A stretch of 64,000 bases of DNA from Ulva prolifera (lineage: Eukaryota; Chlorophyta; Ulvophyceae; Ulvales; Ulvaceae): NCBI GenBank assembly GCA_023078555.1, contig CM041196.1:4154001-4218000 (forward strand). Reading direction: 5' to 3'. The notes under the pieces were generated by a model, which was given only the letters and a program-made list of their open reading frames with translations, was not told where the DNA came from and ran no database searches. The number at the start of each line of letters is the position of its first letter. The first letter of the stretch is position 1. The position numbers were made by a program, and so were the translations under genes. Shown one piece after another: positions 8,642 to 63,097 of this stretch.

Positions 8642-9907
8642 GTTGACAATGGCATAACATGGACCGAGCCCACTGCGATGATATATGGTAGTCCAGATGG
8701 CGGGGACGAGGTGCGACCATTACACGCCCTCGTGCCAGCGCTCCTTGACAGCGTGCCGTTTACTGCTCGCATGGACTCAATAGTGAAACGTGCAGCCATA
8801 TGGAACAAACACATCTCTGTCTTATACCTCTGCGTTGTGGCGCGCTTTGTGAAGCTCAGGTTCTCTCCGCGCCCAAGAAACGCAGACCACACGACTGAGC
8901 TGCAGGTGCCCGTACGAGTGCATGATGCTTGCTTCACTTCAGGTACGGACCTCGTGACGATGCACACCTGGTGAGTCTACGGTGTAAATCTGCAAGCGAT
9001 TTCCCTGGTTGTTGCTCGCGGTGCTACCTGCGTTGCTTGCTTTGTCCTTGTAACACCTGGTGAGTCTACGGTGTAAATCTGCAATCAGCTCCGCACCTAT
9101 CACAGGTTCGTGTGCTGACGGCCTGTGATTACAGCAACTCAAGAGCACCCCATGTCGCGCAAGCTGCCATGTCGAGTCAGTGGCACCACAAACTGCGCTC
9201 AACATCTGCCTTTCAATGCGTTGCAGAAGTGTTGGGCTCCTTGAAGTGTGACTGCGCCGAGCAGCTGCAGCTTGCCTTGGACTACATTAGAGACAACTCT
9301 CCTGGGCTGGTCATTTACCTGCAACAGGAGGGTCGAGGGATCGGCCTAGCGAATAAGATTGCAGCCTACTCACTGCAGGCATGCTTCTCCTGCTCAACCG
9401 TCTGCACAAGGCCAATGTCGAACTACTGTAAGCCTGCCTACCATACAGCAGCTCAGACATGCCTGGCGCCACGAGGCCCTGCAGCCCCCCGATGAGTACA
9501 GCCCCCTGGCGAGTGCTGCACAGCTGTTTTGAGGCCATCACGTCCCAAACATGTCACAAATGAATCTCCAAGGGCCGCTGTGAGCTAGAATACGCCGCAT
9601 GCACATCGCAGCAGCCCCACTACTTCTCTGGACAGCATTTCACGGACCAGCGCCGCACGAAACCGCGTCACCACGTCCTCCGTTGAAACCGTTGCGCAAG
9701 CATAGTAGCGGCGCTGTGCAACTGCCATGCTGTAAGCATTACTACTGTGGATGTGGGGTGAGAGGTGTGGCGCGCGGTGCAGGAGAAGGGCTTTGACACG
9801 GTGGACGCGAACCGCCAGCTCGGGCTGCCGGACGATGCGAGGGAGTACACCTCGGTGAAGAACATCCTCGCCGACCTCAACATCTCAAGTATCAAGCTCA
9901 TCGTGCG

Positions 9908-9939
<32 letters not shown>

Positions 9940-10495
9940 AAACCCTCCCACGCGGCGCACTGCAGCGTCTGCCCCACTCCTTGCCGCCGTGACGTGGGGC
10001 CGTCCGCTTCGCGACCACTGGCGCGCGCCGCCGGCCTCGTTCACATGTCACTGCCGCATGCGTTCCCATGACAGACAGCACACTCCGCACTGGTGTGATG
10101 TGCGTCAGCCCGCCACGGTCCCTTCCCTGCATGCGTGTGCTTTCTCTGTGCTCTCGCGGCTTGTTCCGGCGGCCACCCCTCGCACAAGTGCGTGCAGACA
10201 AACACACGCGCGCGCGCATGTGCAGCCGTACGCATGCAGGTTCGATGCGACTCTGGGCGTGTGTGTGCAGACGAACAACCCTCGAAAGATCCGGCTGCTC
10301 GAGGCGCTCGGCGTCGTCGTCACCGGCCGCATCCCCTGCCTCGTCAAGCCGGGGGAATTCAGCTCGGACTACCTCCAGGCGAAGGGCCGCCGCATGGAGC
10401 ACCTCGATCTCGATGGGGACTGGTGCTACTGGGACCACAGCGGCGAGAAGGACCCCGCGCACCCGCCGCGCCCGATCGACGAGCAGACGTTCTAG
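8642..10495 (+). CDS. ribA: GTP cyclohydrolase II, 5' end unresolved
   Basis: Opens the imidazole ring of GTP to give the pyrimidine precursor of riboflavin. Exons 8642-8710, 8906-8942, 9227-9378, 9783-9902 and 10271-10495 join in frame. The zinc site reads [17 protein letters not shown], with Cys-x10-Cys-x-Cys spacing. It is followed by [17 protein letters not shown] with the active-site Tyr, a D-x-R pair in PDDAREYT that matches the catalytic Asp/Arg of bacterial RibA, and TNNPRK near the end. The TSEV and DACF variants differ from the bacterial/plant TGDV and SECL and recall fungal-type or Urc1-type enzymes, so a role in uracil breakdown is possible. The tail after the core is acidic and ends at Phe. 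The intron after the SLQ codons must start GC rather than GT. The start codon is not identified. Confidence 0.92.
8964..9084. repeat. 32-bp direct repeat flanking a 57-bp insert
   Basis: The 32 bases at 8964-8995 recur exactly at 9053-9084, inside the second intron of the GTP cyclohydrolase II gene. The 57 bases between them (8996-9052) match, in reverse orientation, a stretch at about 24509-24551. The arrangement looks like an insertion with a long target duplication, or a duplication that captured a repeat. Confidence 0.85.
9908..9938. repeat. C31 tract just after a splice donor
   Basis: Thirty-one consecutive C directly follow the donor GTGCG at 9903 in the last intron of GTP cyclohydrolase II. 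Confidence 0.95.
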
Positions 10496-12844
10496 GCCCC
10501 CTCCCTGTGCGGCTGCGCGGCATCGCCCTACAGCCGGCCCCCCGCCCTTTGCGGGTGGTCGCGCGGCCGTCCATGGTTCGGACGCGGTTGGAGTATCAGC
10601 GTGGTGTGTGCACGACTGGCTGCGTGTCGTGCGCATCCGGGCGATTGTCAACAGCGCGTGTCCACCAGCGGTCTGTTCAGCGAGGGCGGGGTGTGCCCGG
10701 CCTGGAGGCAGCTCGTGCGGCGGTGCCAGAGCGTGCCGCTGGGAGTGGGGGCGCATGCCATCGTTCCAACGTGCCGCCTGCAGCACCGGCGAGGGCTGCG
10801 GTTGTGGTGCGGCGGCGGCGGCGGCGGAATGCAGCGCGAGGCGGCGGCAGGCAGCCGCTGAAGTGGCCATCAGCTGGGGCAACGTGTGCGGCTGGTGCAC
10901 AGATGGAGGTGAGGGCGGTGGCAATGCGGCAGAGGACAGGGCGCCGTGGGGGGGGTGGCTGGCGGCGCGGGGGCGCATGCATCAGGGAGTGCATCAGGGG
11001 CGGCCGTGGTTGAGCACCCCGGCGTTGATGCCGGGTGATTTGCATGCACAGGCAGCTGTCCTGTTTGGACGAAGTTTTGGTGAAGGCAGGCAGTGATGGA
11101 GTGATTTGAGTCCACTAGCGGCACTCTTGCGTGGTGATTGTGGCTGTGGTGGCCTGCCGCGCCGGCACAGTGCATGCGGCGGCCGTGCAGGCTTCCGCGC
11201 GGCGGTCCATCCACGTGTTCCAGGTGTAAAGCATTGTGTTGCCGAATGACAGATAAACGATAGACGAGTCAGCTGGGAGTCAACTGGATCTGCTTTCGTT
11301 CGTGGTTTGTGGCTGGATGCATGCGGCGGTGTAGGCCACGGCGGTGCCATCGGAGCATGGGCACCAGCGCGGCAGGTTCTGGCCCCCTGCTGCCACACCC
11401 GCAGTCTCTGCTTGCTTCAGCGTGGACGACACAGCCGCCAAGGCGACCGCGCAGCCGGCGTGGTCACCGCGGCCCGTGGCTGCAGCAGCGGTCCGCAGCT
11501 GCCGAGTGCAGCGCGCGCGCTCACAAACTCCCCCCGAAACAGGCGACGCGGCGACGTGGCCGCGGCGGTCGGTCATGCCGTGGACGTGCTGTGCTGCGTG
11601 CTGTGCGGCGTGCAGCAGTGCGCAGCATGGACGCAGCGCGTGTGTGCAGGTCGGTGCCGCCGGGGGCGCTGGTACTGCAGCTGTCTGTGTGTCGGAGGTC
11701 CAGTGAATGGTATGGTGCACGTGCGGGATGCGATGTGTGAGTCTAGGCGGCGGTGCCGCTGGTTCGAGTGCGTCGCGGTGATGCAGTGGCGGCCCTCAGC
11801 TACAGCACCGCAAGGCCGCTGCTGCTGCCGGGATATGTATCCGGTGGACATGAAGCGGGTTCCGGCAACGAGGCAGCTTGCGTAGCGGACGGCCGCACCG
11901 TCTTGGCGGCCTGGTGGGTACTGCTTGTGAGGGAACACCGATGCATTCAGGCTAGTGTTGCTTGTGCGTGTGCTGCATGTGGTGAAATGTCCCGAGATGC
12001 TGTTACGCCTGCTTTCCTGTGCGGTCTGGCATACAAGTCCTCTGCAGGGCAGAGAGGATTGTGTGACAGATGAACGATGTGCAAGATGTGTTGTACGTGC
12101 CAACTGCTCTTCAGGTTGCGGTGTGTGCCACTGGCGCTGTCATGATGCAAAGAATCATACGCTTTTCGCACATGACTGTGTAGTTTTGTTGATGACATTG
12201 ACCACTCCAGGAAACGAGAACCAGTTGACCTGGGCCTGAGCGTGCTGCGTGCTGCGTGCTGCGTGCTGCGTGCTTGCACATCCTCCATGCACAGTGCACT
12301 GCAATAGCCATATCTCCAGATAAAATGTGAAGTAGGTTGGTCTAGGCGTTGCTGATGCTAGTTGACCGTGTGGCACCCTGCCACGTGATGTCAACGATCT
12401 TGAGGCACAAGTGCTGTACGTATGGATGATGTTGGTAGCAAGATGAGTGTGTGGGTGTGTGTGGCTGATCGTATAGCTGCTGTACTCTCTGCACGGACGG
12501 AGCACGCTCCGATGGGTGTGAGAATAGAGTTGTGGAAGCCCGCTGAAGGCAACGTGACAGTTGTTTACGCAGACACCCTTGCATGCGCATTGGCTGTGGC
12601 ATCTTTATGCAGTAGACTGGAAGGCTGTGCAGGTGGCCTGCCTGCAAACAACATCGATTCGTGGATGCGTAGCCACTTGCGACGTCACAAAAGCTGCTGT
12701 TGAAGCTTTGAAGAGCGGCAGGAATGCCTGTTGCCAGGGTGCTGGGGCAACGCTTGTTTCGGAATGTCGTTCAAAGGACAGCCGTCGCGGCGCTCTCAGG
12801 GCCTGGGTTGTGGCCACACGTTGAGCGTGGGGCCCACGTGTGAG
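10496..12844. other. no gene recognised
   Basis: A 2.3-kb GC-rich tract. Overlapping long frames on both strands are low in complexity (Arg, Ala, Cys) and look like shadows of base composition. Upstream exons of the gene ending at 13258 may be here, for example around 12500-12640, but none has clear splice support. Confidence 0.4.
12241..12275. repeat. 7-bp tandem repeat, five units
   Basis: CGTGCTG repeated five times, the last unit imperfect. Confidence 0.95.
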
Positions 12845-13258: not shown

Positions 13259-13562
13259 TCGCCTAGGCACACCATTGTGCAACTTAGTGCGACCGTGTCG
13301 CTTGTCACTGCCCGCTCTAGCTGCTCGTGAACTGCTGAGCATCTCAACACCAGGAGCGTAAAAAGTCTTTATACTGTTCAACAGCTTCGAGGCTCTGTTT
13401 TGACAGTGCTTTCTCGGTTTGACTGCATGCCTCCGTCGCACCGCGCTGGTGTCGCAGCTTGACGGATTGTCTAGATGTCCGCCAAGCTCAAGGGATACGC
13501 AAGAGGCAGGGCAGACCCGTAGACAGCAGCATGCACACGAAGTCATTGACTGGAGGACTTTT

Positions 13563-15023: not shown

Positions 15024-15028
15024 CAACG

Positions 15029-15231
15029 TGATGCCATTTCGCTGCAGCTGCACTGTACCTCGTTATCTCGAGTACTGCAGCGCTGCGGGCCGCTGCCAGG
15101 GTGGCACAGCTGACACTGTTCTGAACACAATAGGTACATAAGGCAAGACGCCACGGTTTACCTGCGGATTTTGACTCAGTATTCTAATCGTTATCTCGTG
15201 TAAACATTACTATCTATCCTCAACGGCTTCA
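15029..15231 (+). repeat. 5' LTR
   Basis: 203 bp, TG...CA, read as identical to 20673-20875. Preceded by the CAACG target duplication. Confidence 0.97.
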
Positions 15232-16090
15232 GTTGGTATCGGTGAAGTTTCACTTTGATCGCGTGCACTATGCCCCACGGGGTTAAAGGTTTGAACCCGA
15301 TGCTTCACATGCACGCGTATCATGATAGTTTTGTTGCTACTATCGACAACATTTCTGAGTCAATTTACGATCCCCAATCGGAGTGTCTCGGGTTGCTTGT
15401 GTTGGGCTCCCGTGACGCCGCCCGTATAGTGTTGCTATGTGCACGAGTGTTAGTTTTTGTGGACGAATTCTCGAATTGCCGTGATTTTTCGTCTGCGATT
15501 AACTTCTGTCGACACGTAAGTTATACGTTAGGAAGGCGCAAAGTCTTGAATGTCGGCGCCGGATTGCTCCGGGCCTTTGTTCACGTGTGGGCGAGTGCTC
15601 CGCACCCCACATAGAGCACGCTCGTCACATACAAATGCTGATTTTCTGAGCAGCCCCGCACACACGGGCTTGTTCCATACTGGCTCATCGCTAGTATCAT
15701 GAATTTTGGTCGTTTGGAAGCTATTTTCGATTGTCTACTCGCTAGAGCCGTACGTTGGGCGCTAGCTACGCCCCCTCGGCACGCCTCATCTAGCTTTTCC
15801 TATTTGTCGGCGGCCACCGACAATTCTAGGACCGTAGTAGGTCCTTTGGTAGCCCTTTAGGGTCCCACAGGGGTCCTTCGAATATTCCGCGTCGCGAGTT
15901 TTCGCGATTGCGATCTTGAATGCATGTGCACAAGCACTACCCCAAGCACGCATGCGCCCCATTTCAAAAGCGCGTGCTCGAGGCAACATGCAATATGACG
16001 GTCTCTTTGATCTTCGAATTCGGTCGTGCTACTCGTGCTGGTAGCCATCGTCCACCTCGTGTTCATTTATACGTCGACCCGGAACTAGAT
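15232..16090 (+). other. retrotransposon leader
   Basis: About 860 nt between the 5' LTR and the gag ATG. The PBS at 15234-15249 starts TGGTATC, as expected for priming by initiator-Met tRNA (the plant PBS is TGGTATCAGAG), but this tRNA's 3' end is not known here. An open frame at 15255-15614 has no recognisable domain and is probably not a gene. Confidence 0.7.
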
Positions 16091-16930
16091 ATGTCCCAAA
16101 ACCAACCCACCGGTTCCGGATCTCAAGGACAAGGTAATCCACCATCATCCCACAATGTTCCTTCTACTAGTACGACGACAGGTGCAACTTTGAACCAGTT
16201 ATTGCCAAAAGGTACTCTCTCTTTGCCCGAGTTTACTGGTACGCCTGAAACTCGTGTGCATGCATCGCACTTCTTGGCACGCGTCGAACGAGTTTTCGCA
16301 TTGGAACGTTCACTTCCCGAGTATGCCAAGCTAGTTGCTGTGCAAAGTTGCTTTCCGCTGAGTTCGCCAGCATCCACGTGGTATCAGCTCAAATTTCATG
16401 AGTTCTCGACGCTAGATGATTTTGTCGAAGCTTTTAAGAAGCGTTTCGGTGCCTCGGACATTGACACATCGTATTTGCGTCGCCAGTTTCGCCGCTTCCG
16501 TCAACATGACGGAGATACAGTGAACAAGTATTATACAGCGTTATTACAGTTGTCGTCGCAAATTGCGTTGAACGGTACTGGTCTGTCCGACAGCGACATC
16601 GTGGACCAATTTGTCCACGGTCTCAAACCGGCATTGTCCGACTTGGTTTTTCACGAGCAGATCCGTGCTGGTCGCGCATACACGCTTGATGAAATTGTTA
16701 AAATTGCTGAAGACATTGAGCGCAGCGAACGTCTGAAGAATCGAAAGATTCCTGCCGGTGCTCCCGGTAAGAACGTGGCCCCGCAAGCCAATGCATTGCA
16801 AAAAACTGGCAAGTACTGTGCATACCACAAGAGCACATCGCATAACACTGACGATTGCAAGCGAGTGATTCAGTTGAAGAAAGAGGGTAAGTGGCGTGGG
16901 AAGCCAGTTGAAAAAGCCCAAGCGAATTAA
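16091..16930 (+). CDS. gag: Gag polyprotein of the gypsy element
   Basis: 279 residues from the ATG at 16091. The frame is open further upstream, but the N-terminal part there lacks Gag features. A Ser/Thr/Gln-rich start precedes a retrotransposon Gag core containing FTGTPETRVHASHFLARVER, a Trp-Tyr step (TWYQLKFHEF) and a QFVHGLKPAL region. The end carries a zinc-knuckle variant, CAYHKSTSHNTDDC (C-x2-H-x4-H-x4-C), in which His replaces the second Cys, as in many plant gypsy elements. It forms the particle that packages element RNA. The stop lies 8 nt before the pol ATG and one reading frame away. Confidence 0.95.
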   Translation: MSQNQPTGSGSQGQGNPPSSHNVPSTSTTTGATLNQLLPKGTLSLPEFTGTPETRVHASHFLARVERVFALERSLPEYAKLVAVQSCFPLSSPASTWYQLKFHEFSTLDDFVEAFKKRFGASDIDTSYLRRQFRRFRQHDGDTVNKYYTALLQLSSQIALNGTGLSDSDIVDQFVHGLKPALSDLVFHEQIRAGRAYTLDEIVKIAEDIERSERLKNRKIPAGAPGKNVAPQANALQKTGKYCAYHKSTSHNTDDCKRVIQLKKEGKWRGKPVEKAQAN

Positions 16931-16938
16931 CTTTCGCT

Positions 16939-19900
16939 ATGCCCGGGCGAGTTGTTTTCGAGGCTCGGAAACAACCGTCCCCCGAACTCGAACACGAGTT
17001 CGCGCCCCTTGAGGGTGCCTACGGTGATGATGATCTCGTCTATGACGTGTCTGAATTGCCCTCGAGTGATGCTAAGCACACTCCAGCCCGTCTCTCTAGA
17101 GACTGTGGCTCGAAGCCTCCCGTTTGGGACGCGAAGCCTTCGGGCGCTCATGGCCGCAAGGCTATGCTCAGCAGAAAGGAGAAATCCACTGCTTCAGAGC
17201 TTGGTGATATCACCATTTGCTCTTTGCCTTTAGGCAAGAGGTCTATGACCTTCGAAGGGCAAGCACTCCATGAGTATTGCCTCTTCCTGGCCGACACCGG
17301 CGCGTCACACTCTTTCATTTCGAAAGAATTCTGTGACACAAGAGGAATTCGCTTTCGCGAATATGCCTCTTCGGCCAAGCTGGCCAATGGCTCGTCCACG
17401 CCGATTATCGGACAGGTTCACTCCATGTGGGTGCAGCTTGGGCCGTTTCGAGCGAAACACCATTTCTTGGTTGTGGACATGCCACAGTTTCATGCCATAC
17501 TCGGCATGGATTTCATGGATGCGCACCATGCGGTGCTAGCTCCACACGCACGTACTATGCGCCTTAATTACAATGGCAGCACTGTCGTGCTTCACGCACA
17601 CTCTGAGGATTCTGTCCCAGAATTCGAGTCCGATTTCATTGAACTCTGTACGTTTCAACAGTTTGCGGCAGACGTGAAACATCTGCCAGCTGAGCAAGTG
17701 CAGCATGCGTTCATGGCCTGTGTAACGCCTGAACTGCGCGCTGTCACAGCGGATCAAGCTCCTGGAGCTGACGATCCGGAGATGCGCAAACTACTTGACG
17801 AGTTCAAGGACGTCTTGGTGCCTCAGATTCCAGGCGGTCTGCCACCTGTGCGGACCGCTGCAGATGGGTCCATAATCGAACACACGATTGAAACCGCGCC
17901 GGACGTTACGCCTTCGTCGCGTCCTCCATTGCCGTTTACGGCTGAGGAACATGCGATAATTAAGCAGTACATTGCTGATTTCATCGCGAAAGGCTGGATC
18001 AAGCCATCCCTGTCACCATGGGCTGCGCCCGTGCTGTTTGTGCCTAAGAAGCCTGATCCAGTTACAGGCAAACGTTCCTGGCGTATGGTCATTTCGTACG
18101 TCAAATTGAATTCGAAAACACTCAACAGGATTGCGTACCGGTTGCCGCGTACTGCAGACCTGCTCACACGCATGTCTGGTGCATGTTACTTCAGCAAGCT
18201 GGACTTGCTCGACGGGTACTATCAAATCCGAATGAAAAAGGAGGATATACCTAAGACTGCGTTCACCACGCCGTATGGGAACTTCGAGTTCCTTGTCATG
18301 CCTATGGGCTTGTGCGGTGCAGCGTCAACGTTCCAGTTTCTGATGGACGATGCGTTCAGGTATAATGTACGGCTGCCTTCGGGCCAGTATTTGTCCTTCT
18401 TGCATTTCATCGCAATCTATCTTGACGATGTTTGCATATTCAGTCGCTCTCGTGAAGAGCATCTGATGCACATTCGCGCTGTTTTACAACGGCTGCGTGA
18501 ACGGCAACTGTACGTTAAGCCGTCCAAGTGCATGTGGCTGCAGACTACGATCGATTTTCTCGGTCACGTTGTCAGCGCCGATGGCGTGGCCATCGACCCT
18601 CTCCGGGGGGAGGCACTACAGCGTTGGCCTGAGCCAAACAATGTGTCTGAAGTGCGCTCTCTGCTCGGGACCTTCGGGTTCTGGCGAGCGTACATCAAGA
18701 ACTACGCAGATGTTGCTGCTCCTCTCACAGAGCTCACTAGTAAGAGCACTCCATGGCGTTGGGGCGACCGCGAGCAAGCTGCCTTGTGCAAGCTCAAGCA
18801 AGCAGTCCTCGACGCACCAGTGCTAATGCACCCAGACACATCGAAACCTTTCTTTGTTGTCACAGATGCATCTAATTATGCAGTTGGTGCATCCCTCGAA
18901 CAGGAGCCTGTTCCAGAGCAAAGACGTCCCATAACGTTCTTCTCACACAGCCTCAACCACGCTGCACGAAATTATCCTGTGCACGAGCGAGAGCTCCTCG
19001 CTATCGTGTTGGCACTACGTGTCTGGCGACACTTTCTATACGGATCTGAGTTCAAAGTCATTTGTCAGACTGATCACAGGCCGCTGCAACATTTCATGAC
19101 ACAGGCGTCGCTTTCAGCGCGTCAGGTCCGTTGGCAGCAGTTCCTGTCCGAGTTCAACCTCACTGTCAAGTACATTCCGGGTGACTCGAATGACTTCGCT
19201 GACGGTCTGTCACGTCGACCAGATCTTAAGCTAATGATTATCGGTGCAGTCGCGCCATACGACAACTGGCTCAGTCGCATTCAGACTGCAGTCAAGCAGA
19301 ACAGAGAGTCCTACAGGCTCTATAAACGAGTGCTGCAAGGCCCAGTGCACGTCTCGAAGACCTCGCATTACGCGCTACACAACGGTGTATTGTACTACGT
19401 CCGTGACAAGGTGCATGCGGTGTACGTGCCTGACCAAGGCCTGCTGCGTCGTGCGTTGCTGTCGGAGTATCACGACTCCCCATTGGCCGGACATTTCGGT
19501 TGGGAGAAGTGTTATCATGCTATTTCGCAGCATTATTATTGGCAGTCTATGCGCCAAGACATGAAAGACTACGTCTTGCGGTGCACGAAATGTCAATTGA
19601 ACAAGCCTACAGTTCAGCCGAAGCCTCCGCTTCATCCGCTGGAGGTACCGAAAGGACCTTTCCATACAATCACACTCGATTGGTTGAAAGGACTTCCTAC
19701 GACTGCTGAAGGTTACGATTCTGTACTGAATATCGTCGACAAATTCAGTAAATGGGCTATCATTGTCCCGATTGCTACGCATTCGACCACTAAAGACACA
19801 ATCCGCATCCTGTGGGAGCGAGTCTTTAGCTGGGTTGGCCTACCTGAAGTGATCATTGGTGATCGCGACACCAGACTGACTGCGTCGATGATGCAAGCTC

Positions 19901-20283
19901 TCAAGAGCTTCCTTCGAGTCGAATTACGACTCTCCTCTGGGTACCACCCTCAGACCGATGGTCAAACGGAACAATTCCATCGCGTGTTTCTCACGTCATT
20001 GCGTTCATACGTGAACCAGTATCAGACTGATTGGGAACGCAGAGTCCCAGCATTTCTGTTCGCATATCACAACACTGTACATTCTGCTACAGGATATACG
20101 CCTCACAGACTACTGTTTGGCTGGTGTCCTCGTGATTTGCGTGCACCTCTCACTGGTTTGACGCAATCGCCTCACATTGATGTCGAAGTGTGGCTACACG
20201 AGCGCGTTGACGAATTCGCCAAAGTACACCTCACACTCGAGGATGCACGACAAGATCCTAGATCGCAAACGAGCTGCTGGTAG
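16939..20283 (+). CDS. pol: Pol polyprotein (PR-RT-RNase H-IN) of the gypsy element
   Basis: 1114 residues. The aspartic protease motif DTGASHSF lies near residue 119. Reverse transcriptase runs from about residue 330, with KLDLLDGYYQI holding the first catalytic Asp and YLDD at about 494-497. RNase H carries TDASNYAVGASLEQE. The integrase has a His/Cys zinc region ending RCTKCQ and a DDE core whose parts I read in TLDWLKGLP, GDRDTRLTA and TDGQTEQ. All catalytic residues I looked for are present. The frame stops abruptly at 20283, after DARQ, where gypsy integrases normally continue into a DRKR block and a C-terminal DNA-binding region. That block resumes in the +1 frame (next entry). No introns. 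Confidence 0.95.
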   Translation: MPGRVVFEARKQPSPELEHEFAPLEGAYGDDDLVYDVSELPSSDAKHTPARLSRDCGSKPPVWDAKPSGAHGRKAMLSRKEKSTASELGDITICSLPLGKRSMTFEGQALHEYCLFLADTGASHSFISKEFCDTRGIRFREYASSAKLANGSSTPIIGQVHSMWVQLGPFRAKHHFLVVDMPQFHAILGMDFMDAHHAVLAPHARTMRLNYNGSTVVLHAHSEDSVPEFESDFIELCTFQQFAADVKHLPAEQVQHAFMACVTPELRAVTADQAPGADDPEMRKLLDEFKDVLVPQIPGGLPPVRTAADGSIIEHTIETAPDVTPSSRPPLPFTAEEHAIIKQYIADFIAKGWIKPSLSPWAAPVLFVPKKPDPVTGKRSWRMVISYVKLNSKTLNRIAYRLPRTADLLTRMSGACYFSKLDLLDGYYQIRMKKEDIPKTAFTTPYGNFEFLVMPMGLCGAASTFQFLMDDAFRYNVRLPSGQYLSFLHFIAIYLDDVCIFSRSREEHLMHIRAVLQRLRERQLYVKPSKCMWLQTTIDFLGHVVSADGVAIDPLRGEALQRWPEPNNVSEVRSLLGTFGFWRAYIKNYADVAAPLTELTSKSTPWRWGDREQAALCKLKQAVLDAPVLMHPDTSKPFFVVTDASNYAVGASLEQEPVPEQRRPITFFSHSLNHAARNYPVHERELLAIVLALRVWRHFLYGSEFKVICQTDHRPLQHFMTQASLSARQVRWQQFLSEFNLTVKYIPGDSNDFADGLSRRPDLKLMIIGAVAPYDNWLSRIQTAVKQNRESYRLYKRVLQGPVHVSKTSHYALHNGVLYYVRDKVHAVYVPDQGLLRRALLSEYHDSPLAGHFGWEKCYHAISQHYYWQSMRQDMKDYVLRCTKCQLNKPTVQPKPPLHPLEVPKGPFHTITLDWLKGLPTTAEGYDSVLNIVDKFSKWAIIVPIATHSTTKDTIRILWERVFSWVGLPEVIIGDRDTRLTASMMQALKSFLRVELRLSSGYHPQTDGQTEQFHRVFLTSLRSYVNQYQTDWERRVPAFLFAYHNTVHSATGYTPHRLLFGWCPRDLRAPLTGLTQSPHIDVEVWLHERVDEFAKVHLTLEDARQDPRSQTSCW

Positions 20284-20671: not shown

Positions 20672-20672
20672 C

Positions 20673-25592: not shown

Positions 25593-27973
25593 ATGTTGGA
25601 CACCTTCATGAACTTTGTGTCGGTACGCGCTATCGGCTCTCGCTCCGCTCTCGTTGCATGCTGGGCAGCTTGTCAAAGTCGGGATACTCCGCTTCAGTGA
25701 TGCGTCACACACGCCCATGCAGACTGAGCTGTGTGTCGGGAACCAAGCTGTGCATATGAACTTTCCCTTGTGGACGCACGCTGGCTGCAGGACCACGCCG
25801 ATCTCGTCGGGAGCGGTGAGTTTGCGAGCCTGCTTGGCGTTGCTACCGACGACCCGAATGGCTACATGAAGACCAAGGGGCTAGCAATGGGCCGTGAAAT
25901 TATGAGCAAGCTCATGCAATCAATATATGCTGATGATGGCATGCAACAGCCCGCGGATGCTGTCGGTGCGCCGTACGCTTGCTCCGTGAACTATTATTGG
26001 TCTGGATTGCATTTTGTCCCGGCAGCCTGCTGACAGGTTCCTCGAAGCACACAGGCCAGTTTCGGCACGCGCATATCCGAAGTTCAGGTTGAAGGTAGCT
26101 GCGTGACTGACACGAGCGCTCCGATGTAGTGGCAGTTGCAGGTGACTCAGATCTTTCATCTGGTTGCAAGTGCACAGTGGTCGCTCATATGTTTCGACAA
26201 GGCCGCATAGCAACAACAGCGTAGCACAGTCATCGTTATTCATCTTCAAGATGCGGTGCAGTTTCCCGGTCCATGACACCCGGCGACATGGTATCGAATG
26301 CCGGCCTTGGGCAAGGCAAGATGGGCTCCATGCTGGCGCCTCTAGTCGCAGGAATCGTGTCCTCCATTCAGGAGTGCGGTATCAAGGATGAGATCGTGCA
26401 GTTTGCGCAGAAGCGCGCCTTGAAATCCATCGAGGAGCACTCAGCAGTGATTTCCAGCCAAGGAGAAAAGTGTGTCCCCAGAAAGCCTTCGTGCCCTTGC
26501 CTTCACATGACAGAGCATCCAGCACAAGACATCTCTGAATACACAGGTTCGTGTGATGTAACGTATCCTGCCTATCTTCTGCTGACACAAAATGTCCTCG
26601 CCCACGAGCACGCTCTCTGAGACAACTCCTCTGTCTGCTGTGCCAGACACACCCGGACCTAGCCATGCTGAATGCAGTGCCTGTCCCGCAGGCTTGGGAA
26701 CATGGTTGTGGAGGGCATCACCAGCGCAGTCAAAGCCCGCGCAGACCCGACTGCTGCAGCTGTGGCGGCGACGACCTCCCGCGCTGCGCCGCTAGTCGAC
26801 GCCTCCGCCTTTGATGCTCCTGACCCTGCGTGCGCCCCCACCCCTTTCCTAACTCATTTGAATCTCCTACTTTGTATCTTCCCACACTCCGGCCTTGCCC
26901 ATCGATGACTTCCTGAGTCCGCCTCGGACTTCTTCAATCACACAACAATCAACCACATGCAGCAGCCTCGCGCTGGCCACACGCAGCTGTTACCGTTCGC
27001 GCTCGCGGGAGCACCACGTGGGGGTGCGGCCAGACCCTGTGCAGACCCACCACCTCCAAACCACCCTGCACCTGGGTCACATCGGCCGCCCTCAGGTTGT
27101 GACCGGCTGACGGCAGCGTTCGCTGCTCTGCAAGCAACACCACGCACCGCGCCGTCCCCACGCCCATGCACCAGCCACCCGCGCAGCCGGCAGCTTGCGG
27201 TCAGAACCGCGTGGCTTTCACCGCAGGCAGCATGGCCACAGCAGCACTCTCACACGCCCCCCCCTTTGCATGGGGCGTGGCCCACCCCTCTGCTTGTCGT
27301 TTTACTATTGATGGTGGCAGTGTGTTGTAGCTTGTGTTGGTGCGCTCTGCCATACAATGGCCCGAGATCTTATGCTTTCTCACCTGTCCACTCGGCCACT
27401 GAGCTGAACGCAACCGCCAGTGGGTCACGTCGGTGGGTGACACGCATACTCATGCACCGGCCCATTCTCAGCTTCACCTTTGCTTCACCAAGAAACAGGT
27501 GGCGTGGTCTCCCATGAATGCCAGTGCTCTCTCGTCAATTTGGGCGTGAACGAGGATGCGACACAGGCCGGCAGCATGCTAGCACACACTTGCATCGGGC
27601 TATTGCGGTCACAGGGGCTCCGGCTTGCTGCCACGAAAGCAGAGGCATCCGCCCCACGCTTACGCGCAGCCAGTGTCTGCAGCGCGCCTGTGGCACGCGG
27701 CGCGGGAGGGGGCGCCAATGCGGCGACAGGCGAGATGGCGGCGGCCTTCATGAAGCCGCTTGCGGCGGGCGTGAACGCCGTGCTCGGCGACACGGGCGCC
27801 GTGGACCGCGTCATCGACGTCGTGAGTGACTGGGTGCCGCTGGACAAGCTCAAGGCGGCCCTCAAGTCGACCCTGCACCCTCAGTATCAGCGCGCGTGCG
27901 TCGCCGCGGCGCCGCAGATCGAGACGTTCGGGGGCGTCGCCGGTGGCCATGTCATCGAGTTCATGAATGTGCG

Positions 27974-28010
<37 letters not shown>

Positions 28011-28809
28011 CTGCGCTGTACCACCCGCAGTGATTGCTTCGCCTTTCGGTTGGCGCGGAGGTTTGGCCCCGCCTTGGTGTGGCCACGCAGAGGAGCTGGA
28101 GCACGTGCATGCATGACCACCGGCAAGTGTGCCGGGCCACCTGCGGCGGAGGTGTACGAGCAACACTGTTTGGGATTGCAGCAGACTCCAGGCGCAGGGC
28201 GCTAGTTTGGTGCTTCATCTATGACGCTCCAACTCCCAACACCTGCGTCCATGCTTCCTACCTCGTTTGGCCAGTGCTCACGCCAAACTTGATTCTATGC
28301 CGTACCATATTTGGTAAAACACTGTAGTGTACCCAAGTGCAGTGACCCACTGAGAATCCCGCGCGGCCATCCATTGGCGTCAGAGTGTGCCCTATGTTTC
28401 GGTATGGTAGGTGGCCGAGCACGCGAAGCATCACTGCCCGTAGCACGCTGACCTCAACTACTCCTATCATACAGTTGTGCAGCTTCCAGACCTTTGATCG
28501 GCCTCAATGGTTATCGTACCTGCCTTTGAGTCGTGTTGTCAAAGAGCCCTTCATCAGGGCCGCGGAGGGTGTGGCGTGCAGGGCGCGGCAGGCGTGGCGT
28601 CGGAGCAGGCGCGGGACAACTGCGCACGCGCCATCGCGGAGGGTGACGGCGCGATCGAGCGCGAGCTCATGGCCCCGCTGCTCGCGCCCTTCATGCGCGG
28701 CATGCTCGGCCGCCTCGCCGACGGCGGCCTCGGCAGCGCCGCCGCCATCGGCCTCCTCTCCAAGCTCTTCACCTGCTTCAGCGGCAGCAAGGCCGCCGTC
28801 AAGTCGTGA
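25593..28809 (+). CDS. unrecognised helical protein, complete six-exon model
   Basis: Exons 25593-25622, 25791-25965, 26262-26469, 26692-26829, 27683-27968 and 28582-28809 join in phases 0, 1, 2, 2 and 0, giving 354 residues from the ATG at 25593 to the stop at 28809. Donors are GTACGC, GTGCGC, GTGTGT, GTGCGCCCCC and GTGCG followed by C36. The chain is almost all predicted helix with Gly/Ala breaks: an N-terminal half with MKTKGLAMGREIMSKLMQSI and LAPLVAGIVSSIQECGIKDE, an Ala/Pro/Thr-rich linker, then repeated amphipathic segments such as EMAAAFMKPLAAGVNAVLG and LMAPLLAPFMRGMLGRL. The repeated MxPLLAPxM/G pattern suggests a membrane-associating or self-assembling helical protein. No family is recognised, and there is no clear signal or transit peptide. 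Confidence 0.75.
27974..28009. repeat. C36 tract just after a splice donor
   Basis: Thirty-six C directly after the donor GTGCG (27969) of the 25593-28809 gene. Confidence 0.95.
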
Positions 28810-35147: not shown

Positions 35148-35591
35148 CTACGCTGTGAGCACGCATGCGCCACCAACCTCACGGATCTTCGACTCAGCCA
35201 GCTTGGAGAAAAATTTGGCCTTCACGATGACCGGCTGCTTGGGCAGATCGCCCTTTCCGAGCACCTTGAAGATGCCGTACTTGGTCACGTCGATGACCGC
35301 TGCCTCCCCCTTCTTTTTGCCAGCTTCAACGCGAGATTCTTCCCCAACAAGAGTCCAGAGCTTGTCAAGGTTGACGATAGGACAGTGGTACTTGTTCTTG
35401 TTCAGATGGAAGTACCGCATGCCCACCTTACCGAAGTAACCCGGATGGTACTTATCCATGTTGATACGATGATGATGCTGACCACCTGCATTACCCCGAC
35501 CAGAAGGATGCTTGCGATGCTTGCCGATACGGCCGTGGCCGGCACTGACGTGCCCACGCTTTTTCCTATGGGCCCTGAACCGCGTTGTCAT
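35148..35591 (-). CDS. RPL27A: 60S ribosomal protein L27a (uL15)
   Basis: 147 residues, intronless. Starts [20 protein letters not shown] and continues with [34 protein letters not shown] and a C-terminal half with [18 protein letters not shown], all hallmarks of eukaryotic L27a. The start at 35591 is the first Met with the conserved TTR sequel; ten extra upstream residues in frame do not fit the family. It is a core 60S subunit component of cytosolic ribosomes. It diverges from RPL13, with 728 bp between the start codons. Confidence 0.98.
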
Positions 35592-41388: not shown

Positions 41389-41934
41389 GGTGACTGGACG
41401 GTGGTATTGCGTTTGCCGGACGACCGATACACAAACATTGAAGGACAACTCTGGAGAGCTGCAGTACACCGCATAGCTATGCGTATAGCACACGCGCCCC
41501 TGGTCCAGCGCACGCCATGATCAGCTCAGGAGCACACCTGTATCCATGCATACACACGTACAGGACGGCTTGTGATCCCCCGTGCTGAAAGCTACGGCGG
41601 CCCGGCGGCTCGGGAGGGTGGGGGTACTGCCGTGGTGCGGGGCGTGCAGAAGTGCAAGGCATAGCGTGCGTACGCCCTTGTGCATGTGATTTTGTGCCGT
41701 TGTCGCATGAGGCGCATGGTCGGTTGGGGCGGCCTGCTATGGCACATTTGAATCGGCTGGCGGAGGTTGCGTCTCGGTGTGGCGTGGTGGTCCATGATGT
41801 GTTTGTGGCATATGTTACAAAAGAGTGAACGGGAGAAAACAAACACCGAAACCGAATGGTCCATGATGCGTTTGTGGCGCATGCGCTGCGCCGGTTGAGT
41901 GTGGCGTTGCGCAAAGGGCATGCTGACGTGCTCC

Positions 41935-42100
41935 GTGCAGGGCTTCAATTTGTTGGCTGGAATTACCGGCAGGGCTGTGGTACGTGCTCGTGCCCTGCGC
42001 AGTGCCATGGGTATTATGAGCGAGTGGCTTTGCGAGTGCATTCCGAGCACCGGCTTAATACCCGGCCTCTGCGCTTTGGAACTCCACGCACACACCTACT
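41935..42100 (-). repeat. dispersed ~150-bp repeat, diverged copy
   Basis: Read on the minus strand, it follows copy B (from about 5410) almost word for word: CAGAGGCCGGG, ACTCGC blocks, then GGGCACGAGCACGTACCACA and a GCCGGTAATTCCAGCC block. A full-length but diverged member. Confidence 0.8.
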
Positions 42101-52075: not shown

Positions 52076-54273
52076 ATGTCATTTGTGAGCATTGGTGATA
52101 ACAGCTCTACGCCCAGTTTTCTAGAATTGGTTGCAGCGCACAAACTCGATCGCAGCATTCGGGATGCTTTCTCTTACGTGCTTTCGGTACGGTCTGGTCA
52201 CATCTCCTAAACAAAACCAATTGAAAGTACTCCTCATGATCATGCCCTGCTATGCTCGGTATCGAATTCAGCACGCCGTGCTGGAGCCTTACCCGCACAG
52301 CCCTGGGACAGCAGCTCAATTCTTATGCACCATCGATCGTGTTTAATGCTTACAAACCTTCAGGTGGTTGCCGACAGAGTCCCTCATGGAGGCCTGCGAC
52401 TGCTTCAGATGGATGCTGAACTGTATTTGCTGTTCTCACTGCTGGTACAAGGCACATCAATTTTGACGAATGGTGCCTCCCTTGCTGAAAGCCTGTACGG
52501 CCTTCGACGTGCATCAGCTAGGCCGATGGGTCACACAGCAACGGCCAGTCCATCTTTGAGACAGTTGTGGCTCTCCATTTTCTTCCTGGTGTGCCTCTCC
52601 CAGTCGGCTAATTGCAGATTGCACCCATATGCCTGATTGCGGAGGTTGTACCCATCAGGGGATCTCACAGCCCATCTGACGGTACGAAAGGTTGCATGAT
52701 CTTCCATTGGGATTCCCGCACATGGCGACAGTCGACACATCCACTCGGAGGAACCAAATCTTACATGCCCAGAGGGACATGCCTCCAGCCACGTGCAGGC
52801 TGGAGCTCCATATGTGGCGAACCTTGTACTCGGCGAGCCATCAGCAGCTGCTCTACCTCCAGGCACAGGCAGCTCGGGCCCAGACAGCGCGCCTGCGCAG
52901 CTCACAGCACAGTCATCACTGAACGACCCTGCAGCAGACCACCCCGTTGACCCCGCTGAACAACTGCATAGCGCCACGCAATCACAGCCGGACCAGAGCA
53001 ACCGCATCTGTGCCCAGCGTACGGTGGTCCGCACATTACGGGAGGGGGCTCAACGGCGGCTAGTCCAGGCCAGAAGGTCACTGGCGGTCCTGCTCATGCA
53101 TCTGCGCCGGCACGGCCACATGGCAGCGGGGCTGCTGAACCTAGGCTACGAGGCGGCCTACCTGCTCAAGCGCACGCCGTTCTTTAGTCCGGCGCTGCAC
53201 TGCTCCGGGCTGACAATTGTGCGAGACGATGGGGCCAGTACGGTGCGAGCTGTCGCCCCGAACTGCCCCGATGTGCTGCTTGGCCCGGCGTAGCAAAGAT
53301 ATGCCGCACTGCCCCCGTGTATTGTCTCCTGTGCTGCTTTGTGTGGCGCAGCGAAGAGCCAACGGACTTCTCCCGTGCACCGTCTGCTATGCTGCTTGGC
53401 ACAGCGTATGCATGGGATACCACAGCACGGTGCCGATGCAGCGGGCGCGGCTGCAAGCTCAAGCGGCCACCCGGCAGCGGCTGTGGGACCACGGCATCAG
53501 CGCGCGCGCCCCGGCCGCGCTCGGCGCCGCCGTCGTGCTGCGCAGCATCCACGCCGTCGGCAACAACGCCAAGACGTCGCTGCTCATGACCCTCGTCCTC
53601 TTCAAGGTGCCCCCCCCACCACACCACATGCGGACGCCTGCTCCACGTCTACCAGGTCTACCCACACAGAGCCTGCGTTCCCCAGGAGAGCACTTGCCTG
53701 GACCTGCCAGAAGCGAAGCTGTGTGTTGCTGAGGGCACACAGGCCTGACACAGCGGCCAGGCCTCCTGGGGCGTCTGTGCCTCCGCACCACGTTGTCATG
53801 CATACACAAGTTCACCCGTATGGTTGCGTCGGCTTGGGACTCGCCATGCGTGTGGCATCCCGAGTCTGGACAGAGTACAAACCACAGTGGCAGAACACAG
53901 TAGTTAGCCATACCACATGGCCCACAAGCTGAAGGGACCTTGCAAACCCCGAATGATCGGGGCGACATGCCGAGTGCAGGTGCTGGAGTGGTGGTTCATG
54001 GCGGGCGAGGAGCGGGTGGAGGAGGCGCGCCGCGCGGTGCCGCCGCCGCCGCCACCGTACCCTCCCAACCCCGCCGGCGTGCCGCTGGTCGCCGATGCGA
54101 GCGTGTGCCCGGTGTGCCACCGCCACCGCGTCGCGCCGGCACAGATCGCGACGTCGGGCTACGTGTTCTGCTACAAGTGCGCGTACACCGCCGTCGCGGC
54201 GCACAGCCGCTGCCCCGTGACGCTCATCCGCTCCGGCCTCGACGACATCCGCCGCCTGTTCCCGTCCGCCTGA
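52076..54273 (+). CDS. PEX12: peroxin 12, RING E3 of the peroxisomal import complex
   Basis: Exons 52076-52186, 52364-52588, 52799-53218, 53442-53606 and 53980-54273 all join in phase 0, giving 404 residues. PEX12 forms the PEX2-PEX10-PEX12 ubiquitin-ligase channel that recycles PEX5. Seen in order: TPSFLELVAAHKLDRSIRDA, then NGASLAESLYGLRRASAR, then a hydrophobic PYV segment, a Pro/Ser/Gln-rich insert of about 50 residues (roughly 125-175), a membrane-helix region with LLNLGYEAAYLLKRTPFFSP, VLEWWFMAG, a PPPPPPY linker, and a RING with Cys350, Cys353, Cys371, Cys374 and Cys385 ending in CPVT. The incomplete cysteine set is normal for PEX12. One intron begins GTG followed by a C tract. A G-rich tract at 54376-54394 lies in the 3' flank. 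Confidence 0.96.
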
Positions 54274-57489: not shown

Positions 57490-60400
57490 ATGGTGGAACA
57501 GTTCGAGGAGCGTGTGGAGGCGTCGGTGGATGAACTGCGGCAGCAGCTCGCCGCGGCGGTCACGGAGGTGGGCGGGTGCCAGGAGCGGCTCGCGGCGGTG
57601 GAGGGCGCCGCGCTACCGCCGCTCGGCGCGGAGGAGCTGCTGGCGCTGCGGGAGCGCACGGAGGGCCTGGAGCGGCGCCTGGAGACGGCCCAGGCGGGCG
57701 CCTCCGGCACGAGCGCAGCTGCTGCGGTGCGGGCGCCTTGCTTCTGTGTGCTGTGTGCTGTGGCCACAGGGTGGAGGTGCTGGAGGGATGTGGACGTAGA
57801 GCCGCATCGATCAGCAGAACATGCCCACACTGGTGAAGGGAGCGCGGGCTGACAGGGTGATGCTTGAGGGGCCGCTGGTGAGGCGGCGCAGGCAGCTGCT
57901 GCATGCGTGCATGCAGTTTGCGGCTCCGCTCTCCGCGCGGCCACCACCCGGGGTGGCGTGCGCTCTCGGAGATGTACAGAGCCGCCGCAGGCGGCAACAG
58001 CATCGGCATGCTTTTGTCGATGTTACATTGGGTGATGTGCCGCACATGGCGACATGGGGGGCGGGCCCAGGGTGTGGAGGGCAGTGAGCGCGCTGTTGGT
58101 GGTGTGGTGTGACGCGGGATGCGCCCCTGGAATGCTGAGATCTAGTTGATGTGTGGAACAGCAGCCCGCGCTCACCATACACAGTGACAGACCATCTCAA
58201 AACTTGAATTCAAACATCGTGGTGGTGCTTGATGTAGCTGCTGCGCCTGATGACGCAGCACGGATCGGGGCAGGTACTCATGGAGACCAGGGGGATGGGG
58301 CATTGGCAATATGAAGCTGTGGACTACCAACTCCGGGATGAACATAGCAGCAGAGTGCCCATTGCAGCGGCCATGCGACTGAGCTGACTGGCAAGCGCGG
58401 GGGCTGTGTGCAGAGCGTGTGTGACACTCATCAGAGCGTGTGTGTCTCGTGAATGAGCCCGGTTGCAACAGCGCCGTGCCAGCTGGTGCAGGAGGCGGCA
58501 GCGCAGGCGGCGGCCGCGATGGAGGCGGCGCAGGCGGTGCGTGCTGAGGTGCACAGCGCCGTCGGCGTGCTGCAGCAGCAGCTCGACCCCGCCGAGACGC
58601 TGGCGGCGGCGAAGAAGGTGGCGTCCGTGAGCAGCAGCGTGGCGGACCTCAAGGCGGCGGCGGCGCTGACGAAGGCGTCGCTGCGGGCGCTGGAGGAGCA
58701 GGCACACGGGCTGCGCGCGTCCAACACCGAGGTGCAGCAGCGGCTGAGCGCGCTCAACCAGCGGAGCACGACCCTCGAGCAGTCGATCCAGGTCGGGCCT
58801 CCCGGGCTCCCCCTGCGCGGCCGCCTGCCCCTGTGTTGCTTCTGGGGCACGGCTTCAGCACGCTGAATGGGTATACTGCACTGTGTGGGTTCTCTATGGT
58901 ATCCTCCGCCAGGAGCAGCAACAAAGCGGCGTCAAGCGGTGACACTCAGGACAGGCCACGCAATTCGTGGAAATTTCTTGAAACTGTCTCTCAAACGGTT
59001 GGCTGATGCCGATGGTCTGGGCACGCATACAACAACCTGTTCAGGTCTAACAGCTGTATTAGTATGCTGACGAGTACGTGGCAATGCTATCAGCGGGCCG
59101 CCTAGGCGCTGATGAGAACTGTGACTCAGCGCACATGCTAGCTACGTGGGTGCAATCGTCCGCATCCAGGAGCACAGCTGGGGGTCAAAACGGGTCACAG
59201 GCGTGGACATGTGCACACCCACACGCACCACACAGCGCACAGGCTCCACGCGAGAGTTCACCTCAAGGTCCCCCGGCCTCAGGGTGGTCCGCGGTGCCGA
59301 CGATCCGCCTCCCAGCATGCATGCAATGCGCGTGGGGTGCGTTGCAGACGGCTTCAGCAGCGGCGAGTGCGGAGCTCGGGGACGCCACGGCCGCGCTGCA
59401 AGGGCGCTGCGCGGAGCTGCAGGCCGCACAGCAGGCGACGGCGGCGCGTGGTGAGGCCATCGGCGAGCGCACGGCCGCGCTGGAGACGCTGGTGGGTGTC
59501 GTGGAGGCGAACCACAACGAGGCCGTGCATGCTGTGGCGAGCGTGCGCACCGCCATCACCACGGTGCCCCCCCTCCCCCCCCCTCTTCCCCGCCACAACT
59601 GTAGTGTTATCATTCACGACATGACCGTTGACTCGGCACCACCATGTTGCTCATCGCAGGACCTGAGTCAAATGCGGGATTGGCGGGCGGGCCTCATGTC
59701 GCTCCATGCACACACACGCCCCCTGCTTGCATACCAGAAACCGACAGTATCGGGGCATGTGTGCAACAGGCTCTGCTCTGGGCGGCATGTGTTCTGCTGC
59801 AATTCGTGCCGATGCCGAGCTGTGCCATCAAGGTGCGTGCGGGGCCGTCACTCTCAGCGAAGAGGCTGCTCCTTCTTGGCTATCGTGTGCCAGCATCCTG
59901 TTGCCACAGTTCCCGCATTAAGTGGTTAGGGGGTGTGGCCAGAGGTACTGCCCTCGCGGAGGACTGTGTGCAATGAGTCAGGCTGGCTCAGTGAGCATGC
60001 AGCCACGGTCCAGCCAGCGCTAGCTGCGACACGTATGCTGCCAGCAGTAGCTGTCCTCCCTCACACCACACATTCCTTTGTACTCAAATCAGCTGGCTGC
60101 CACACGCGCTCCCGTGAAGCTATGTGCGAGGGATGCATTCCATTCACAAGCAATTGTTTGCAATTGTGTGCCGGCGATGGCATCGTGACGTGTGCATGAG
60201 GGGCTGCCGCAGGAGGCGTCGGCGCTGGCGGCGGGCATCTCCAAGGCCGAGCACGCCGCGGCTTCCCTCGGCTCCCGCCTCGCGCTTGCTGAGCAGCGCG
60301 TTAATGAGCTCCAGGCGAGCAAACAGGATGCAGTGACGGCGGTGACGATGGACATGGTGAACGCCCGCGTCGCGAACGTGCGCCCCCGCCCTCTGCTCGC

Positions 60401-63097
60401 AGCTGCCCCTCCCCACATGCACAACAAGTCATGGAGAGAACTGGGAAGATAGCAGCTCCGGCCACGATGTGTGCTGCTGGCACATTGTGCACACGTGCAC
60501 GTTCTCAAGCATGCAATTCCCTCTGCATGCTGTTTCCAGTGCTGCGGCGAATGGTGCATCGAGAAGCTGCTGCAGCGATAGATGCCCGGGTGATTTATGC
60601 ACCTGCTTGTGTGCGTGTGTGAAGCTGCATTGACAGCAGCACTACAGACCATGTGCTTCTGGTTGCATGTTCCATTCCAAACGACAGCAATGTTCCCCAC
60701 GCATACCCGGTACATGCACAGCTGGACGGCTCAGCTCGGTCTGCACCGCAGCCTGCGCCCGCGGCACGGCTCAGGATTATTGTCATCACAACAGCGCCGG
60801 CAAAAACGCCGCACCTCGGCGTTGCTGCGCGTGCCTGCTTGGGGCGCCGCAGCGGCAGCGTGGGCGGACGAAGCGGCCCCGGGTCGTGTGGCCGCCGCAG
60901 TCACCACCGCGCGTGGGTACAGGGTGTGGAGGAGTCGTCAATGAGGGCGGCGGAGGCGGCGCTGCGGGTGCAGGAGGTGCAGGGCGCCGTCGCCGACCTG
61001 CAGCGGCTGAAGGCCGACCGCGCGGACACTGTGACGACCACGCAGCTGCAGATGCGCACCCAGGACACCCTGGAGGACGCCAGCAAGGCTGTGCAGGCAC
61101 GCTCCACCCCCCCTCTCCACACATCCCTTCCATTCACTTGTGCCAAAGGCCGGCAGGTTGATGTGCGGTCGTGCAAGAGGGGCAAGTCAGGCCGCGAGGC
61201 CGGTGTGTCCTATGCACATGCCTGCTGTGTCCTATGCACATGCCTGCTGTGTGCTATGCACATGCCTGCTGTGCAGCAGGGTGCGGCATCGGTGCGGCGC
61301 GCAGGCCTTCCGGACCCAGCATGCCCGCCGCATGAGTGGCAGTGGGCGCCATCGGCCCCGGCACACATGGCCAGCGCGCTGCTGTTCATGCTTCACATTG
61401 CCCCCGCCTCGCAATGTCCTCTTCCGCGGGGAGCCCCCGGCTACAGCGTGGACACGGCCTCGCACACGGCAGCACGCTGGCGTGCACGGCAGATGAGTTT
61501 CCCGCTGCTTCTGCAAAGCCCTATGCTTCCGGAGCTCTGTGGTGCTTTGTCAGCGGCTGCGGTGCCGGCACGGGTTTTGAGGAGGGACCGTGCGGGTGGC
61601 GGTGCAGGCGGTGGCGGAGGATGTGCAGCGGCGGATTGAGAGGAAGGCGGAGGCGGCGGACGTGCACGGGCTTGAGGCGGAGGCCGCGAAGCGCTTTGCC
61701 GGCCTCGAGGCCGCGCTGCTCAAGGGCCTGCACGCCGTCAGCGCCAAGACGGCGGCCGGCCTCGACGTCAAAGTCGCCTGCGAGGTGCGCCCGCCGTGCT
61801 GCCCCCTGCTGCGGCGGTGGCTATGCGGTGCCACGGTGGCTATTGGGGATGCCGTGGCTGCCATGCCCATGCAGCTGCAGGCTAGCCATGCCCTCGTTTA
61901 GAGGAAGTGGGGGGGGAGGGGGGATTTGTTATGCGCAGAATATCTGCCACAGCACCTGACATTTCACCGTTGCAAGTGACCGCAAGAGGTAGGCTGTGCT
62001 GCTTCACAGATGCGCCCCACCTTCCGCATCTCACGGCCGTGAGGCGTGTGTTGTGCTCCACCAGCTGCTCGAGTGGGAAAGGCTCACTTGCGGCCACCGA
62101 GGGACTGCTTGGCCACTCCCATAGGGCGTGCACAGTGTCGCATTTGATCCTGCGCGCCTGCAGGAGTACGATCGCTTCCGGGGGTCGATCACGTCGCGCC
62201 TGAACGACGTTGCGCGGGCGCTCACCGAGCTGCTGCCGACGGCCCGCGCCGCCGACAGCTCCCGCGGCCGCGCTGCCACGACCTGCCTGTCGTGCGACCA
62301 GCGCGTGCGCTCCAGCTCCGGCGTGCTGCGTGCTCTGGCCGGCGCGGGGGCGACGCCGGACAGCATGCCGCTGCTGGAGCACCTGCAGCGCGCCGCCGCG
62401 CCGGTCATGCTGCCGGCGCCCCCGCCGGTGCCACACCGCAAGGCGATCTCCTCCGCTGACCCCATTGGTGCGCATCAGCACTGCATGCGCCAGGCCTGCT
62501 TTGCGGAAGTACACTCTTGGGGCTGCGGGATTGGTGTGTGTATGATGATGGAGACATGCTGGTGAAGGCTACAGCTGCCATCGTGCATGCCCAAGGGGAA
62601 ATGTTGGCTGGGTCGTGGCGGAGCTAGCGGTGTACAGACCACGACTGGGGCTCAGTGTACGTGTGGTGCTGGAAACGTGCATGTGGCAGACGTAAACGCA
62701 CGACTGCCTGCGTCCGCTGGCTCTTTGGTGACTGGTGTGCATGAATAAGTGTGTGGTGTGGCACGTGTGGTGTAAGGAAGCGATTTGCAGGAGCACACGC
62801 ACGATGTCACGCGCTTGTCAAGGTGTGCGTACACGACTCTGCCTGGGTTTGACAATCGATTGTATGGTCTGCTGCTGTTCTGGAGGGAAAGCGACGAGTT
62901 GCCATGCAGGTGCCTACCACAACGCAAGGCTGGCGCTGAAAAGCCGGCAGCATGCAAGTCTGCAGGTGCACCAGAAGCGCCAGGGCCCTCCAGTCCTGGC
63001 TGCGAGGCCCCACACTGTCGGAGTGCTTCGGCCGACTGGGGCGGGCTACAGAGATGACGAGACGCTTGCTGCCCGCACCTCACCAGCCGAAAGGTGA
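57490..63097 (+). CDS. DUF4795-like (QRICH2-type) coiled-coil protein
   Basis: Exons 57490-57726, 58492-58791, 59348-59563, 60213-60377, 60923-61096, 61608-61784, 62164-62467 and 62910-63097 join in frame, giving 586 residues. The first 420 are an almost unbroken coiled coil rich in Ala, Glu, Gln and Arg. Cys464 and Cys467 in TTCLSCDQRVRS, with the preceding long helices and a following Pro-rich, basic tail, match the order in DUF4795 proteins such as QRICH2, a sperm-flagellum protein. The AEDVQRRIERKAEAADVHGL segment parallels the DUF4795 KADKxxVExEI helix. A flagellar role is inferred. The ATG at 57490 directly follows TAG and could instead be internal to an exon. The fifth donor is ambiguous: GCACGC at 61097 or GTGCAG at 61091; both keep frame. 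Confidence 0.72.
61206..61271. repeat. 22-bp tandem repeat, three units
   Basis: Units TGTCCTATGCACATGCCTGCTG at 61206, 61228 and 61250 (third with one change), within the fifth intron of the coiled-coil gene. Confidence 0.95.

Follow-up and report, generated by a model that had tools for sequence, protein, structure and literature searches.

The window, that is, the whole 64,000-nucleotide stretch of Ulva prolifera DNA analysed here, contains seven sites in four predicted genes at which a predicted or homology-supported intron opens with GTG(C/G)C and runs into C-rich sequence, as the sequence-only reading had described. A direct sequence check found all seven at the reported coordinates on the plus strand. 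The first lies in a RibA-like gene (GTP cyclohydrolase II) at 9459, the product of which matches Pfam PF00925. Its intron (9903..10270, plus strand) has the donor GTGCG, a C31 run at 9908-9938, and the acceptor GTGTGTGCAG. Homology places this acceptor at 10270, compared with 10225 in the gene-finder model. Removal of the intron joins SSIKLI to TNNPRKI, and the spliced product aligns to PDB 2bz0 without a gap at the junction.

Two predicted introns of a second gene, at 26830..26962 (plus strand; donor GTGCGCCCCCACCCC, i.e. GTGCG followed by C5) and 27969..28581 (plus strand; donor GTGCG with a C36 run at 27974-28009), were taken from the gene-finder model only. The intron of a Pex12-like gene (53607..53979, plus strand) opens with GTGCCCCCCCC, i.e. 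GTG followed by C8, and was placed by the gene-finder model, with weak Pex12 homology. Weak matches to 7t9x and 7t92 were obtained, and a 9.7-bit 7t92 domain crosses the junction between FK and VLEWWF. Three further introns were predicted by the gene finder on the plus strand in a coiled-coil-like gene: 59564..60212 with the donor GTGC7TC9, 60378..60721 with the donor GTGCGCCCCCGCCC (GTGCG followed by C5), and 61785..62124 with the donor GTGCGCCCGCCG, which is C-rich without a tract. The predicted proteins of the second gene and of the coiled-coil-like gene gave no Pfam match, and an Rfam scan of the window returned nothing reaching the gathering threshold. Elsewhere in the window, a Ty3-type retrotransposon occupies 15920-20283 on the plus strand, with a gag-like ORF followed by a 1123-aa frame with protease, reverse transcriptase, RNase H, and integrase domains, and an exon of ribosomal protein L27a (uL15; Pfam PF00828) is located at 35148-35420 on the minus strand.

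Donor use judged by protein homology

Our gene finder was home-made, self-trained partly on the window, and given only GT and AG as starting signals. GCG already led the triplets at +3 to +5 during the five uninformed rounds, and the informed rounds converged on GTGCG as donor and TGCAG as acceptor. The informed donor model placed a donor at the tract in 24 of the 28 loci selected for their tracts, a count that is partly circular. Because donors called in this way can be circular, junctions were evaluated by protein homology, and donor use was judged by homology only.

Five C-tract or C-rich donors have junction-level protein homology, namely that of the RibA-like gene at 9903, three in an asparaginase gene (L027), and one in a plastid-type Cpn60 gene (L067). 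The asparaginase gene carries three successive introns at 3337, 3824, and 4210, opening with GTGCG-C7TC6, GTGCG-C4, and GTG-C11, respectively. The alignment to 2ocd covers all three; a gapped segment immediately precedes the second, and the third has a single-residue gap close by. The Cpn60 locus was chosen because of a chaperonin domain, independently of its C content. Here, VAVIK is followed by an intron that opens with GTGTG-C39 and ends with GTGCAG, and the frame continues with VGAATE; the paralogue L066 reads VAVLQVGAQTE uninterrupted in one exon at the same point. The closest match of a plastid-type Cpn60 exon is chaperonin 60B1 of PDB 5cdi, a Chlamydomonas entry, which points to an alga. 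Where they are testable, the C-tract donors are supported by these junctions as real splice donors, in line with their initial description as intron starts.

C runs at donor words and the C-rich patch

Pattern counts were obtained over the whole genome (88.9 Mb, 44 contigs), and about 361 kb of sequence was sampled in all. GTGCG followed by C12 occurs 126 times genome-wide versus 5 times for the reversed pattern. For GTRHG followed by C12, which includes GTGCG, the counts are 230 versus 25, the five words other than GTGCG adding 104 versus 20. The set of GTR followed by C12, which partly overlaps the former, gave 308 versus 139. C12 runs with a non-C base at -11 number 2795 in the genome. In the first 100 of these, GT stands 5 bases before the run in 15 cases and 3 bases before it in 8, with 1 to 7 cases at eight other offsets. 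Ten of the 100 start exactly after GTRHG, versus 0 to 3 for four control motifs. These 100 listed runs cover the first 2.9 Mb of contig 1, and about 21 of them are clustered in 140 kb (G000 C1:2210000-2350000). Counts of C12 near TGCAG acceptors were discarded, since overlapping matches inflate them.

A similar preference was seen in 317 kb of sequence including the window, where GTGCG is followed by at least 5 C in 12 of 1037 occurrences, compared with 0.11% overall. Among the 768 5-mers not ending in C, GTGCG ranks 2nd for at least 5 C, 8th for at least 4, and 13th for at least 6. For other donor words, runs of at least 5 C follow GTACG in 1 of 476, GTGTG in 1 of 2020, GTATG in 0 of 679, GTGAG in 0 of 688, and GTAAG in 0 of 235 cases. 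C and G homopolymers are the common kind in this genome, with 11 C, 7 G, and neither A nor T runs of at least 12 bases in the same 317 kb. On the reverse strand of locus L007, C13, C25, and G24 runs lie close by at bases 1506-1591, and a long hairpin is possible inside this C-tract intron. These counts confirm that the link of C runs to the donor position is real and beyond chance.

The base composition of introns was analysed in a set of 19 chaperonin introns, most of them positioned through the continuity of the protein, which remained from 28 junctions in 11 of the 12 listed chaperonin regions. Nine junctions were dropped, 5 without a candidate intron and 4 that were ambiguous. The C39 intron of L067 falls in one of the five junctions without a candidate; it was read by eye later and stands outside the 19. 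Where several candidates fitted, that with the best HMM continuity was chosen, except at the second junction of L058, at which the +4 candidate was taken over the -4 candidate with a homologue as a guide. The RibA-like and Pex12-like genes were excluded from the composition tests. The 19 donors comprise GTGCG (7), GTACG (5), GTATC (2), GTATG (2), and three others found once each, and C occupies +4 in 12 of 19 (L057-L064). That donors favour GTGCG, as had been noticed from the window, is supported, GTGCG being the leading donor word of the 19 chaperonin introns.

Within +6 to +20 of these introns the frequencies are 0.393 for C, 0.270 for T, and 0.144 for G, versus 0.274, 0.269, and 0.255 in the interior. 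C accounts for 112 of 285 bases versus 602 of 2196 (chi-square p=4e-5; per-intron Wilcoxon p=0.001) and G for 41 of 285 versus 559 of 2196, and pyrimidines together rise to 0.663 from 0.543. U-richness was not seen at +6 to +20 in the 19 introns, the T frequencies being practically those of the interior, and their pyrimidine content does not rise before the acceptor (0.547 at -20 to -6 versus 0.543). Since only C rises, and this at the 5'-end, the signal in the 19 introns is C rather than pyrimidine in general.

A further set of 98 predicted introns came from contigs 1 and 2, sampled outside the window at regular intervals in 20 stretches of 10 kb. The donor model ignored all positions from +6 onwards, and introns below 80 nt were excluded. 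The C frequency is 0.36 at +6 to +20 versus 0.274 in the interior, and this rise is over by about +36. The fall of G is weaker than in the chaperonin set (0.241 versus 0.272). C5 runs start at +4 to +9 in 5 of 98 introns, compared with 20 of 3817 six-base windows at other intron positions (p=0.0003); for C4 runs the counts are 9 of 98 and 53 of 3817. C6 and C8 runs were found at these positions in 1 of 98 introns each, which is not significant in this small sample. G5 runs are slightly raised too (2 of 98 versus 8 of 3817, p=0.024; G4 3 of 98, p=0.11). The corresponding C5 ratio obtained with the informed donor model (18 of 116 versus 52 of 6118) is partly circular and was not relied on. Hence C runs are not as common elsewhere in introns as at their start, which leaves the sequence-only reading standing on this point, and the C-rich patch from +6 to about +20 appears to be a general intron feature of the genome.

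Spliceosome class and origin of the C tracts

The introns are best read as ordinary U2-type introns, judging from the snRNA matches and splice-site words. All 5 U1 matches start with AUACUUACCUG, the best of them scoring 69.0 bits, just below Rfam's 69.5, and all 3 U6 matches contain ACAGAGA. Altered snRNAs were rejected as a cause, the U1 and U6 matches found being canonical. The start of the five U1 copies implies that C at +4 and at +6 to +8 adds no U1 pairing. TGCAG was the acceptor in 16 of 21 cases, with GT-AG ends imposed when placing introns, and a search for a branch-point motif gave no clear enrichment.

Donor C tracts at 30 loci range from 12 to 45 C with a median of 24.5, which does not differ from the length of other C runs of at least 12 bases (median 26, n=11, p=0.85). 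Because donor tract lengths match those of other runs and the flanks are unrelated between loci, we favour slippage as the origin of the long tracts. In our main reading, to which we assign a probability of roughly 0.6, these are U2-type introns with a C-rich donor patch that probably helps splice-site recognition and is sometimes stretched by slippage to a poly-C microsatellite. The donor, GTRYG and most often GTGCG, would be followed by the C-rich patch at +6 to about +20, which would aid recognition of the 5' splice site in place of the missing 3' pyrimidine tract and may be read by a poly-C-binding or TIA-like protein. Once the patch holds about 5 or more consecutive C, replication slippage may turn it into a poly-C microsatellite, the left edge of which would be held by donor selection while rightward growth would be tolerated by the intron. 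The role in splicing is favoured by where the patch sits, by its specificity for C, by the missing pyrimidine tract on the 3' side, and by the C-rich enhancer, hnRNP K, and TIA systems compared below, and a poly-C-binding splicing factor beside the 5' splice site, as proposed from the window alone, is plausible. More tentatively, and with less than even odds, the pyrimidine tract may have moved from the 3' to the 5' side of introns in this lineage, the C tract at +6 to +20 being read by a U1-recruiting poly-C-binding protein and seeding the microsatellites.

A purely mutational origin is possible though rather unlikely. C homopolymers would then grow from C seeds in tolerated non-coding DNA, the donor edge being favoured only through seeds supplied by the C-rich donor context, and C would have no role. 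The 2795 C12 runs testify to the wide distribution of poly-C, and the equal run lengths at donors and elsewhere would be expected of such growth. Neither is there a clear signal of compensation on the exon side. G at -1 and A at -2 are less frequent at tract loci than at chaperonin exon ends (12 of 30 versus 15 of 19, p=0.009, and 5 of 30 versus 11 of 19, p=0.005), and a comparison with other predicted donors gave 12 of 30 versus 44 of 89 (p=0.40) and 5 of 30 versus 27 of 89 (p=0.16). G at -1 is also flat across three C-run classes of predicted introns (0.45, 0.47, and 0.49; n=20, 32, and 89). However, the seeds are enriched as well, and the patch is seen in the 19 chaperonin introns, which lack long tracts. 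Slippage alone is therefore an insufficient explanation. One prediction of a role in splicing failed: a patch that keeps the donor unstructured was rejected, because replacing +6 to +25 by an interior segment resulted in higher predicted accessibility of the donor (0.336 versus 0.298 for the native sequence, n=104 introns of at least 80 nt, p=0.0008).

It is improbable that the tract acts on the DNA level by means of a template-strand quadruplex or R-loop that pauses the polymerase at the intron start. The template strand does present G31 at 9908 and G36 at 27974, and a template-strand quadruplex is possible. R-loops, however, usually form where the non-template strand is rich in G. Here that strand is rich in C, so by this rule the R-loop suggested in the sequence-only reading has the wrong orientation, and in ordinary introns the C-rich patch does not have the length needed for an effect of this kind.

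Mobile introns of the introner type sharing GTGCG and the C tract as 5'-end are highly improbable, and introner identity was rejected for the introns examined, among which the many alike introns that mark such a family were not found. The common opening word would fit this idea, as introners of Chrysochromulina are described as bringing their own 5' splice site (PMC9860276), and 39 intron pairs in a set of 194 predicted introns have sequence in common at E<1e-5, which indicates that repeats do occur in predicted introns. The 30 C-tract loci, however, have no common sequence adjoining the tract. When the 600 bases following the run were compared, a single pair gave a match better than E=1e-4, a 145-base repeat lying 87 and 451 bases beyond the run. 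The seven window introns match only themselves in 361 kb, and the introns at 27969, 59564, 60378, and 61785 gave only self-matches in a genome-wide search, which passes over very common words. The predicted introns sharing repeats start with varied words and, among the best pairs, have no C tract at the shared start. With unrelated flanks at 30 loci and no second genomic copies of four introns, the suggested intron-generating element with a common 5'-end found no support.

A dispersed repeat, with up to 98-100% identity between L020, L023, and L030, is the chief shared sequence in the best pairs listed. It is shared by predicted introns at 5151-5916 and 41670-42047 of the window and in L020, L023, L024, and L030. 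The window intron at 5151 opens with GTGCGCCCCCG, and the shared stretches begin at its base 368. This repeat is probably a transposable element, and perhaps some of the predicted introns carrying it are not true introns.

Comparison with known systems and significance

TIA1, TIAR, and Nam8 bind pyrimidine tracts that follow the 5' splice site, and pyrimidine enrichment just inside the intron has been reported in almost all of 22 organisms (PMC2766253). Our introns share this enrichment. In contrast to these tracts, C alone and not T is raised here, the patch begins at +6 rather than being centred at +15 to +25, some tracts become pure C12-C45, and there is no clear anti-correlation with splice-site strength. 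Human C-rich intronic splicing enhancers occupy positions -80 to -30 relative to the acceptor (PMC2481429), and the same paper cites hnRNP K on a C-rich motif close to the 5' splice site of a chicken intron. These C-rich elements help introns having a weak 3' pyrimidine tract, in which our introns resemble them, whereas our patch lies at the donor, seems to be general, and is known from sequence alone.

GTGCG donors have been described in Micromonas (AG/GTGCGT) and Ostreococcus (GTGCGTG) (PMC3879977, PMC2483917). The donor word with C at +4 is the same as in our data, but these donors continue with T or TG, and the accessible text of the two papers does not mention a C tract. Poly-C runs at intron starts were not found described in a literature search that reached few subscription papers. 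The accessible literature suggests that GTGCG donors were already known and that the donor C tract appears to be new.

In yeasts, switches between A and U at +4 have been linked to METTL16 and SNRNP27K without a compensating change of U1 or U6 (PMC10581693). In contrast to these switches, +4 is mainly C in the Ulva genome analysed here. This preference for C combined with canonical U1 and U6 makes the link of METTL16 and SNRNP27K to the choice at +4 testable outside yeasts. If the patch is a working signal, it would provide a natural test of intron recognition from the 5' side without a 3' pyrimidine tract, and C runs of up to 45 bases would constitute a built-in dose series. It would also represent a splicing signal able to seed simple repeats at a fixed position in genes.
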